DNA of 64,000 bases, from NCBI RefSeq assembly GCF_000349325.1, contig NC_020504.1:7792326-7856325 (forward strand). The letters are read 5' to 3'. The stretch's first letter is position 1; each line of letters begins with the position of its first letter. Of this stretch, positions 1,898 to 64,000 are shown piece after piece. A program made the translations under genes and the position numbers. The notes beneath the pieces were generated by a model that had not been told where the DNA came from, did not search any database, and saw nothing but the letters and a program-made list of their open reading frames with translations. This stretch comes from Streptomyces davaonensis JCM 4913. GTDB lineage: Bacteria; Actinomycetota; Actinomycetes; Streptomycetales; Streptomycetaceae.

Positions 1898-2845
1898 TTG
1901 CTGAAGCCTGCCCGCAACAAGGAGAAGGATCCCGAGGGGCGGATGCCCCTCGCGGAACACCTTCGTGAGCTCCGCAACCGGCTCGCGAAGGCGCTGCTGG
2001 CCATCGTCGTCGTGACGATCGTCGCCGCCTTCTTCTACATGGACATCATCAGCTTCTTCACGGAGCCGATCCTGAAGTCGGTCGGCTGCAAGGAGAGCTT
2101 CGAGCAACTGGCGAACACCTCCACCGAGAAGACCTGTGCGCAGATCACGATCAACGGTCTGCTCACCCCCTTCACCCTCGCGCTGAAGGTGTCGCTGATG
2201 GCCGGCGTGGTCCTGGCCTCGCCGATCTGGCTCTACCAGCTCTGGGCCTTCGTCGCCCCGGGCCTGCACAGGCACGAGAAGAAGTACGCGTACGCGTTCG
2301 TCGCCACGGGCTTCCCGCTGTTCCTGATGGGCGCCTTCTTCGCGTACAAGGTGCTGCCCGCCACCGCGAAGGTGCTGATCGAGTTCACTCCGTTCGGCGT
2401 GGACAACCTGCTGCCGCTGGACGATCTGCTCGACCTCGTCACGCGCATGGTGATCGTCTTCGGTCTCTCCTTCGAGTTGCCGCTGCTGCTGGTCATGCTC
2501 AACTTCAGCGGCGCCATCACCGGCAAGCGGATGCTCGGCTGGTGGCGCGGAATGATCATGGGCATCACGGTGTTCGCGGCCGTCGCGACCCCGAGCACCG
2601 ACCCGCTGACCATGATGGCGCTCGCCGGACCGATCTGGGTGCTGTACTTCCTCGCGGTCGCCGTCTCGCTGGTCAACGACCGCCGCAGGCGCCTGCGTGA
2701 GGCGATGGGCCCCGCCGACGACGAGGCCTCCGACCTCGACCTCACCCCCGAGGACATCGGCGAGGTCGAGACCGTCTCCGCCAGCCGGGCCCTGCCCGAG
2801 CAGGCGTCCACGGACCGGGTCAACGGTTATGACGACGTGACCTGA
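1898..2845 (+). CDS. tatC: Sec-independent protein translocase subunit TatC
   Basis: TatC is the multi-spanning receptor for twin-arginine signal peptides. The 315-residue product has the family signature near the N-terminus (PLAEHLRELRNRL), six hydrophobic segments, the conserved FVAPGLHRHEKKYAYAF loop, and a charged C-terminal tail of about 50 residues typical of actinobacteria. The start is a TTG, the only start codon giving the expected MLKPARNKEKDPEG N-terminus; GATGGGA lies just upstream. It probably forms an operon with tatA. Confidence 0.95.
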   Translation: MLKPARNKEKDPEGRMPLAEHLRELRNRLAKALLAIVVVTIVAAFFYMDIISFFTEPILKSVGCKESFEQLANTSTEKTCAQITINGLLTPFTLALKVSLMAGVVLASPIWLYQLWAFVAPGLHRHEKKYAYAFVATGFPLFLMGAFFAYKVLPATAKVLIEFTPFGVDNLLPLDDLLDLVTRMVIVFGLSFELPLLLVMLNFSGAITGKRMLGWWRGMIMGITVFAAVATPSTDPLTMMALAGPIWVLYFLAVAVSLVNDRRRRLREAMGPADDEASDLDLTPEDIGEVETVSASRALPEQASTDRVNGYDDVT

Positions 2846-61874: not shown

Positions 61875-62678
61875 TCAGCCCAGGCGTGCGGCCAGCCCAC
61901 CAGTGCAGCGGACCTCGTCGCCCGCCGTGATCAGCAGGGCCTCCACACCCGGCAGCGCCTCCAGCCAGCGCAGGCCCTCCCGCGACCCCATGGCGAACGC
62001 TGCCGTTGCCCAGCAGTCAGCCCAGGTGATCGTGGGGGCCACCACCGTCACCGCGACCAGGTCCGTCACTGCCGAGTGGCCGGTGCGGGGGTCGACGATG
62101 TGTGCCCCCCGTTCCGCCGTCCCGGACGTGGCCACCGCCAACTCCGTCGTGCCCGCCGCCGAGATCACCGCCGCCAGCCCACCGGGACGCAGCGGATCCG
62201 CGATGCCCACCCGCCACGGTCGCTCGGTACCCGGCACACCCAGTAGCTGCACATCGCCGCCGCCGTTGACGCTCACGCCGGTCACGCCGGCCGTCGCCGC
62301 CAGCAGTCGGGCCGCCCGTTCGATCGCCCAGCCCTTCACGATGCCCGTGGGGTCCAGGCGCCCCTCGTAGGAGGTCGAGAACCACCCGTCGCTGACCCGG
62401 GAAGCCTCCTCGCCGAGGGCCAGCACCGCCGCCACATCGGGGTCGCACTCCTCGACGGTCAGCTCCCCGCGCGCCAGCCGCGAGATCTCGCTGTCCTCCC
62501 GGTAGGTGCTGAACACCTCGTCGACCCGATGCAGCCCGGTCACCGCCTCGGTCAGCGCCGCCCGTACCGCCTCCGGATCCCCGCCGCGGACGTCGAAGGA
62601 GAAGACGGTCCCCATGACCTCCTCCACTTGACGCACCGCGGCGGGAGCTTCTGCCGATTCGGCCACCGACTCAGCCAC
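61875..62678 (-). CDS. apbE: FAD:protein FMN transferase ApbE, no signal peptide
   Basis: A 267-residue flavin transferase that attaches FMN from FAD to a Thr/Ser in target proteins. Family motifs: EEVMGTVFSFDV near the N-terminus, DEVFSTYREDSEISR, DPTGIVKGWAIERAARLL, VSVNGGGDVQ, VATSGTAERGAHIVDPRTG and WADCWATAAFAMG. Most ApbE proteins are exported, but here the frame has no hydrophobic leader and starts with GTG overlapping the preceding FMN-binding stop by eight bases. It should act in the cytoplasm. Its substrate is surely the neighbouring FMN-binding domain(s). Confidence 0.9.
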   Translation of the reverse strand: MAESVAESAEAPAAVRQVEEVMGTVFSFDVRGGDPEAVRAALTEAVTGLHRVDEVFSTYREDSEISRLARGELTVEECDPDVAAVLALGEEASRVSDGWFSTSYEGRLDPTGIVKGWAIERAARLLAATAGVTGVSVNGGGDVQLLGVPGTERPWRVGIADPLRPGGLAAVISAAGTTELAVATSGTAERGAHIVDPRTGHSAVTDLVAVTVVAPTITWADCWATAAFAMGSREGLRWLEALPGVEALLITAGDEVRCTGGLAARLG

Positions 62679-62919
62679 CAGCCTGGTCCAGGGCCGACTG
62701 AAGCGACTGCTTGTAGCCGGTGCTGGTGTACGTCGCCCCGGACACCGCGTCGATGTCCGCACTGCCCGCCGCCACCGCGGCCGCGTTGAGCTTCGGCACG
62801 GCGTTGCCGTTGATCTGCGTGGACTGACCACCGCTCGGCTGCTGCACGGCCTCCGCCGCAGTGATCTTCCCGCCGGTCACGGTGATCCGCACCTGCACCG
62901 GCCCGTACTGCGTCTTCAC
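62671..62919 (-). CDS. Second FMN-binding domain, out of frame with the first
   Basis: An 82-residue FMN_bind domain with the flavinylation motif DAVSGATYTSTGYKQSLQSA, nearly the same as that in the upstream gene. It has no signal or anchor of its own; a GTG at 62919 is the only start. In frame upstream lie TGA codons within about 60 bases. It is either a separately translated domain or, more likely, the second half of a tandem-domain protein separated by a -1 frameshift near the C5 run at 62954-62958 (a G5 run on the coding strand). Confidence 0.55.
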   Translation of the reverse strand: MKTQYGPVQVRITVTGGKITAAEAVQQPSGGQSTQINGNAVPKLNAAAVAAGSADIDAVSGATYTSTGYKQSLQSALDQAGG

Positions 62920-63461
62920 CGTCTCCCCGGTGACCGTACGAGCCTGAGCGGCACCCCCGGCCCGGCATCAGCCCCGGCATCAGCACCGGCCCCGGCTCCG
63001 CCCGCGGACTTCTCCATCTGGTCCAGCGCCGACTGCAACGACTTCTTGTACCCGGTGCTCGTATACGTGGCCCCCGACACCGTGTCGATCTCCGCGGTCT
63101 GCGTCGCGAGCGCCGCCTGGTTCAGCCGGGGCACCGCGGTGTTGGTGACCTCGGTACTGCGCCCACCACTGGGCGCCTGCACGGCCTCCACCTTGGTGAC
63201 CTTGCCGCCGCTGACGGTCAGCCGAACCTGCACGGGCCCGTACTCCGTCTGCACCGCGTCCCCGGTGACCGTACCGGCCTGCCCGGAGTTGCCGCCCTGC
63301 GCCGATTCCTGCGCCGCCGCGGTCTGTTGCGGCGCGGCGCCGCCCGCCGCCTGTGCGGCCCCGGGATCCGACGCCGGCTTCAGCGACAGCAGCAGCACGA
63401 TCCCGGACACGGTGGCGGCGCCCGCCAGCACGACACGCCGGATGGGGTGAGTCTTCCTCAT
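62916..63461 (-). CDS. Membrane-anchored FMN-binding protein (flavinylation substrate)
   Basis: A 181-residue protein. The N-terminus MRKTHPIRRVVLAGAATVSG is an anchor or signal with an RR pair resembling a Tat motif. An Ala/Gln/Gly-rich linker follows (30-70), then an FMN_bind domain (70-148) with the site Ser129-Gly130-Ala131-Thr132, where ApbE would attach FMN to Thr132. The tail GGAGAGADAGADAG is a repeat, after which the frame departs from homology and stops. A GTG at 63494 overlapping the previous stop is an alternative start. Confidence 0.78.
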   Translation of the reverse strand: MRKTHPIRRVVLAGAATVSGIVLLLSLKPASDPGAAQAAGGAAPQQTAAAQESAQGGNSGQAGTVTGDAVQTEYGPVQVRLTVSGGKVTKVEAVQAPSGGRSTEVTNTAVPRLNQAALATQTAEIDTVSGATYTSTGYKKSLQSALDQMEKSAGGAGAGADAGADAGPGVPLRLVRSPGRR

Positions 63462-63490
63462 CGCTCCAACAGCTCCTGAAGTCCCGTCGC

Positions 63491-64000
63491 TCACATCTCG
63501 AACGACTCGTGATGGATGCGGCGGGCGGGCACTCCCGCGCCGCGCAGTGCTTCGTACACGGACTGCGCGAAGCCGGGCGGCCCGCACATGAAGACGTCGT
63601 GCTTGTCGATGTCCGGCAGCTTCTGCTGAAGCCGCTCCGCCGAGATGTCGGGCCGTTCCCCGTCGGGGCTGTTGACCGCGTACATCAGCCGCGCGCCCCG
63701 CTCCTCGGCGATGGCGGACAGCTCGTCCCACAGCGCCAGATCCTGCGTGCTGTTGGCGCGGTAGAGGAGAGTGATGTCACCGGAGGCGCCGGGCAGTGTC
63801 TCGAACAGCGCGCGCATCGGCGTGATCCCGACGCCGCCCGCCACCAGCAGCACCTTGCCCCGGCTGCGCCGCTGCGCGGTGAGCGCGCCGTACGGGCCCT
63901 CCGCCCACACTTTGGTCCCGGGCTCCAGCTCGCGCAGCCGCTCGCTGTGGTCGCCGATCGCCTTGACGGTGATCCGCAGCATGTCCGGGCGGGGCGCCGC
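63491..64000 (-). CDS. Ferric-reductase-like flavoprotein, C-terminal part
   Basis: Open to the right edge, so only the last 169 residues are present. They form a ferredoxin-NADP reductase-type module: end of the FAD domain (GTKVWAEGPYGALTAQRRSR), the NAD(P) domain GKVLLVAGGVGITPMRALFE, DITLLYRAN, and VFMCGPPGFAQSVYEAL with HHESFEM at the end. The missing N-terminus is probably a ferric-reductase-like membrane domain. It would pass electrons from NAD(P)H to the FMN-binding proteins encoded downstream. Confidence 0.82.
   Translation of the reverse strand, partial: AAPRPDMLRITVKAIGDHSERLRELEPGTKVWAEGPYGALTAQRRSRGKVLLVAGGVGITPMRALFETLPGASGDITLLYRANSTQDLALWDELSAIAEERGARLMYAVNSPDGERPDISAERLQQKLPDIDKHDVFMCGPPGFAQSVYEALRGAGVPARRIHHESFEM

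Follow-up and report, generated by a model that had tools for sequence, protein, structure and literature searches.

How might a Streptomyces cell move electrons from cytosolic NAD(P)H to an acceptor outside its membrane, and where would the flavins on such a route be attached? Both questions are raised by a locus in Streptomyces davaonensis JCM 4913, whose genome comprises 9.56 Mb in two contigs. The locus lies at the right-hand end of a 64,000-nucleotide stretch (positions 7792326-7856325 of contig C1), which we call the window. Its genes are all on the minus strand: a ferric-reductase-like gene, then two FMN_bind domains with SGAT flavinylation sites, then apbE. The original prediction, made from the window alone, had taken them for a compact module leading electrons through flavin adenine dinucleotide (FAD) and two covalently bound flavin mononucleotides (FMNs). 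As the best explanation of what we found, we consider it probable that the three genes form an electron-export module.

A predicted di-heme reductase and its flavin-binding partners

The FAD/NAD(P) part of the reductase was confirmed where it had been predicted, at 63491-64000 (minus strand). The gene had been recognized correctly, but the window edge truncates its open reading frame (ORF), leaving the C-terminal 169 codons. A 12-kb stretch that includes the sequence to the right of the window, L014, completes it: the full ORF begins with GTG, encodes 460 amino acids and occupies L014:5817-7199 (minus strand), equivalent to window positions 63491-64873. Does this added sequence hold the membrane domain on which the module idea had been staked beforehand? 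A Ferric_reduct match (PF01794, E 3.3e-18) covers residues 65-190, just outside the window, and is followed by FAD_binding_8 (residues 259-330) and a C-terminal NAD_binding_1 domain (PF00175, residues 343-439, E 1.6e-11). A reductase without a membrane domain is ruled out by the Ferric_reduct match. Since every domain of the module lies above its Pfam cut-off, these assignments are not attributable to chance.

An alignment of the window reductase with others 28-98% identical to it, 22 in all, shows four histidines of the membrane domain to be invariant (H99, H113, H180 and H193). They form two pairs, H-x13-H and H-x12-H, with spacings of 14 and 13, which we take to be those of the two heme pairs of NADPH oxidases (gp91phox). 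The pattern is spaced as for two hemes, and we predict a di-heme reductase. Its closest named match, from Streptomyces cupreus, is 98% identical. Its profile matches solved chains of the NADPH oxidase type, human and bacterial, among them NADPH oxidase 5, dual oxidase and 8qt6, named in the PDB as a FAD-binding FR-type domain-containing protein and presumably the NADPH oxidase (NOX) of S. pneumoniae. In the window enzyme, as in 8qt6 and the bacterial NOX/ferric reductase superfamily, a heme-type membrane domain precedes the FAD and NAD(P) domains; the window enzyme differs in having an operon partner of the covalent-flavin type.

That partner is encoded by two ORFs, one for each of the two predicted FMN-binding domains. 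The first (62916-63461, minus strand, 181 amino acids) carries an N-terminal anchor, MRKTHPIRRVVLAGAATVSGIVLLLSLKP, with a twin arginine, followed by FMN_bind domain 1 and its SGAT site (codons 63077-63066). The anchor was recognized by hydropathy only, which reaches 2.29 over 14 residues. The second (62671-62919, minus strand, 82 amino acids) holds FMN_bind domain 2 and its SGAT site (codons 62742-62731) and has no anchor. Both domains carry the longer motif SGATYTS.

The expected ApbE follows at 62678-61875 (minus strand; PF02424, E 3e-47). It is a compact protein of 267 amino acids with no hydrophobic leader, and the FMN gene runs into its start, the two overlapping in the string GTGGCTGA. 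Its sequence matches solved ApbEs, and its structural model (pLDDT 90.2) aligns with Treponema pallidum Ftp (4xdt) at a TM-score of 0.84. All 13 compact ApbEs compared share H193, D221 and T225; we take these residues to be the conserved histidine and the metal-site aspartate and threonine.

Is this set of genes kept together elsewhere? We compared 80 named Streptomyces loci, 74 of which extend more than 1200 bases past the reductase, the remaining 6 being too short. ApbE was found in every one of the 66 named loci that are 16 kb or longer, and the overlap string was found past the reductase in 69 of the 74.

We conclude that the module belongs to the published actinobacterial MsrQ-like flavinylation clusters, as described in the available text of Meheust et al. 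2021 (PMC8238504). In these clusters a PF01794 membrane protein, which often ends in an NAD-binding domain, is typically accompanied by apbE and an FMN_bind gene; 1797 such clusters are reported, broadly in Actinobacteria, 1437 with PF00175, and multi-flavinylated proteins are also described there. Structural models of MsrQ-like proteins have been published as well (PMC11334425). At our locus the PF01794 gene lies within five genes of apbE and FMN_bind, and an export signal on at least one ApbE or FMN_bind gene is provided, by hydropathy, by the N-terminal segment of the FMN protein. The differences are that ApbE is leaderless here and that the FMN gene is split. Because this kind of module has already been published, the find itself adds one member.

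What the locus does offer is a partner for a characterized protein. The window FMN protein is, by sequence, a close relative of S. azureus SaFMN3: its domain 2 is identical at 62 of 79 residues to SaFMN3 domain 2 (PDB 8P2A). SaFMN3 is reported to carry three FMNs, shown by mass to be covalent, with ApbE flavinylation of SGAT-type sites demonstrated (Tong et al. 2023, PMC10339131). It too is an anchored multi-domain FMN_bind protein with DxxSGAT sites and a putative flavin transferase gene flanking it; three domains in one protein there contrast with two domains in two frames here. The available text of the same paper calls its natural electron donor unknown. By analogy, the adjoining reductase is a candidate donor for SaFMN3-type proteins, and the conserved gene order makes that candidate a specific one.

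We infer the following path. Cytosolic NAD(P)H would reduce the FAD of the membrane reductase, and two b-type hemes would carry the electrons across the membrane. On the outside, membrane-anchored FMN_bind domains, each bearing a single FMN at its SGAT threonine, would take them from the hemes and deliver them to an outside acceptor, which might be O2, ferric iron or another protein. ApbE would attach the FMN to these domains, most likely in the cytosol before export.

Could the module instead be an oxidase, in which a NOX-like reductase feeds FMN domains that react with O2, for peroxide production or oxygen scavenging, and no wiring leads to a distant acceptor? The reductase does resemble NOX enzymes, and reduced SaFMN3 is reported to react with O2 at 1.2 s-1, with a single potential of -184 mV (PMC10339131). 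However, among the L014 ORFs, only some of which were searched against families, we recognized no peroxidase or catalase. Moreover, reduced flavins often react with O2, which counts against reading such reactivity as a function, and we regard the oxidase as unlikely, if the stronger of two contenders. The other, reduction of extracellular ferric iron for uptake, is suggested by the family name Ferric_reduct and by the VIT1 iron transporter reported in 153 published MsrQ-like clusters (PMC8238504). Yet the identified neighbors in L014 are arginine genes, an L,D-transpeptidase-like gene and a repeat protein; no iron transporter was recognized there, though not every ORF was searched. We find a role in iron uptake somewhat less likely still, and prefer an electron-export module to both.

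A frame break between the two FMN domains

The original prediction had described one overlapping run of genes on the minus strand. The strand was right, and the GTG of the second FMN ORF does overlap the stop of the first. Is this overlap the normal layout? The frame of domain 2 is open only from 62967 (a stop lies at 62970-62968), and the first ORF ends at 62916. Similarity to the start of the second repeat extends upstream of the second ORF's GTG, in that ORF's own frame. The reading frame changes within 62919-62967 (minus strand), a G-rich linker, and a GGGGG run lies in the stretch between 62967 and 62916. Most relatives have one open frame here: all FMN domains share a frame in 69 of the 74 loci (46 with two domains, 23 with three). 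Hence two separate FMN genes were rejected as the normal layout, and the overlap of the FMN ORFs is a frame break, produced by mutation or by assembly error. Where a multi-flavinylated protein carries several FMN_bind domains on one exported chain, the window copy has two such domains in two frames in this assembly.

In the other five loci the domains are spread over frames. L051 and L068 contain N; L075, L094 and L119 are free of it, and the L119 copy resembles a collapsed repeat. One of the six short loci, L048, is also split in the same linker, into a different frame. A pattern search for the SGAT site in 30 loci found a split like that of the window copy in none of the other 29; L030, L031, L032 and L040 yielded fewer sites than usual in this search, a shortfall that in L032 reflects sites reading SSAT and SGAS. 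These replacements of SGAT mark the FMN proteins of the lineage of L116 and L032, where they might abolish or alter FMN attachment.

Has the break arisen by genuine mutation, in an FMN gene that this strain is losing? Two points speak for it: the break falls between intact domains, and no frame change was found in any other gene of L014 by comparison with L047, L096 and L050 (matches above 60% identity). However, domain 1 retains its anchor and SGAT site, and neither the reductase nor ApbE is damaged. Both slippage and sequencing error readily affect repeated G-rich linkers, and other assemblies are also broken at such GC-rich repeats, which may point to an error of sequencing or assembly instead. 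We consider decay possible but doubtful.

The break bears on the electron route as it was first proposed. The membrane reductase with its FAD and NAD(P) domains stands; the hemes had been left out, and in this assembly only domain 1 is membrane-anchored because the FMN gene is split. The electron-export module would then have a single anchored FMN domain to work with, unless an assembly error accounts for the break.

How many FMN domains a locus has is itself variable. On a tree of 69 reductase genes from close relatives, at least 9 switches between two and three domains took place, at least 4 of them forced by well-supported branches. In 22 proteins with three domains, domain 2 and domain 3 are on average 91% identical. 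The nearest match of a domain lay in its own protein for only 24 of 156 domains; because of this low count, recent copying of domains is at most occasional.

Where FMN is attached

ApbE enzymes that serve exported proteins might be expected to carry a leader. We scored up to 60 in-frame residues upstream of the conserved MG motif, regardless of the true start, against a hydropathy bar of 1.8. A hydrophobic leader was found in none of 103 scored ApbE frames (106 were found, 3 of them unscorable; the window and paralogous L016 copies are included), and the highest value was 0.96. As a control, 25 of the 30 top-scoring ApbEs of a phylum-wide search reached the bar, the stretch being counted from the candidate start; of the five below it, L198 fell just short and has a lipobox-like N-terminus. 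A genome search detected only two ApbE genes in S. davaonensis, and since both are leaderless, the cytosol is the most likely site of FMN attachment. Three FMN_bind proteins of the genome have N-terminal hydrophobic segments, with low-complexity linkers after them, and the positive charges would favor FMN domains on the outside. Taken together, these data suggest that FMN is attached in the cytosol and that the loaded protein is exported, possibly by the twin-arginine translocation (Tat) system.

Is Tat export plausible? Tat is described as exporting cofactor-loaded proteins, whereas the Sec route needs a supply of cofactor outside (PMC9973259). The anchor motif, RR-x-hydrophobic-hydrophobic in the form HP[ILVM]RR[VAFI]VLA, was found in 79 of the 80 named loci; the remaining one, L121, ends 4 bases past the reductase. 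With tandem copies and distant relatives included, the anchor pattern gave 118 frames: 111 RR, 3 RH and 4 with other readings, which resolved as RR in L082, L091 and L105 and as RH in L131. Eleven further anchor frames were unmatched, three being RR by eye and eight not anchor ends. Among these frames lysine occurs at neither twin-arginine position, while lysine and arginine alternate at the first two residues. On these sequences, Tat export of the FMN protein in this clade is plausible. The only TatC match of the genome lies in the same window, at 1955-2632 (plus strand).

Several observations weigh against cytosolic loading followed by Tat export as a general arrangement. RH anchors occur in four relatives (L015, L131, L132 and L135), and L135 adjoins a compact ApbE; Tat is not general, therefore, even among relatives in the clade. 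The anchor of the paralogue L016 reads KR. Among 18 more distant FMN_bind loci (L204-L221), 6 by eye have RR immediately before the hydrophobic segment and the rest have KR, TR, KK or none. The leader is also absent from 20 of 20 picked mid-scoring actinobacterial ApbEs, so that its absence is weakened as a mark of the compact subfamily. Compact ApbEs fall on one side of a branch with support 100 in a tree that also includes 22 of the 30 high-scoring actinobacterial ApbEs, and the same split has support 99 with the 20 mid-scoring ones, both trees being quick ones with long branches.

Could flavinylation take place outside the cytosol as usual, with ApbE leaving the cell by some means other than a classical leader, for instance carried along with its folded substrate? 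Tat carriage of partner proteins is known for other enzymes and speaks for this, as does the available text of Tong et al., which assumes extracellular flavin transferases (PMC10339131). Against it, all 103 scored ApbE frames lack a hydrophobic stretch, and no such carriage of ApbE was found reported in the literature searched, some of it available in part. We judge extracytosolic flavinylation here improbable.

Cytosolic ApbEs are on record, that of Klebsiella, one example, serving a soluble fumarate reductase (PMC12052999), and in Dehalobacter an apbE gene is reported inside a Tat operon (PMC5928378). The Listeria FmnB/PplA system likewise pairs an ApbE-type enzyme with a two-site flavinylated protein, but there the ApbE (FmnB) is described as acting outside, supplied with FAD by an exporting energy-coupling factor (ECF) transporter (PMC9973259), whereas ApbE here is leaderless. 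We advance, tentatively and at slightly short of even confidence, a wider proposal: in Streptomyces, and perhaps more widely in high-GC Actinobacteria, a compact ApbE with no leader, encoded by a gene whose start runs into the end of its substrate's gene, may load extracellular FMN_bind carriers with FMN while they are still in the cytosol, before their export, by Tat in this clade. We recognized no treatment of a leaderless ApbE with an exported FMN_bind protein in Actinobacteria in the literature searched, which left most subscription journals outside. Where FMN is attached in Streptomyces is a gap to which the leaderless ApbE points. If attachment is cytosolic, no FAD exporter would be needed for flavinylation, the picture of an extracytosolic ApbE would fail for a whole group of bacteria, and cytosolic loading would stand as an alternative to the Listeria route of exported ApbE and FAD exporter.

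Gene neighborhood and paralogous modules

The module is flanked by argR and argH; argB, argD, argR and argH were confirmed by curated models. Of the 66 named loci that reach 16 kb, all were found to contain argR and 59 argH, the 14 shorter loci being uncounted. An FMN gene also lies about 340 bases before the reductase in 23 of the 80 named loci.

We also searched a same-genus set of 121 genomes, taken as Streptomyces. A window-type reductase (at least 79% identity) occurs in 41 of them, and 15 of those 41, by a count of search rows, have another reductase no more than about 2 kb away. Is the L,D-transpeptidase-like neighbor a module-specific partner? It occurs in 86 of the 121 genomes (E 1e-20), as against 50 for the reductase at a stricter E of 1e-150, and we rejected it as such. 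Another neighbor, at L014:8135-8980 (minus strand; window-equivalent 65809-66654), encodes a 281-amino-acid protein whose N-terminus is hydrophobic and which contains two almost identical repeats with two cysteines apiece. It matches Pfam only below the cut-off and NCBIfam not at all. By a similar count of rows, homologues (E below 1e-50) occur in 36 of the 121 genomes, and 33 of these 36 belong to the 41 that have a window-type reductase, figures that are uncorrected for kinship among genomes.

Two paralogous loci were found elsewhere in the genome. L015 (G000:C1:1443500-1455500) holds a reductase-FMN pair with no apbE nearby, its FMN anchor being the RH form listed above. L016 (G000:C1:2577000-2589000) holds a third module, composed of a reductase, one FMN domain and ApbE, and adjoins a divergent response regulator and sensor kinase, both confirmed by curated models.
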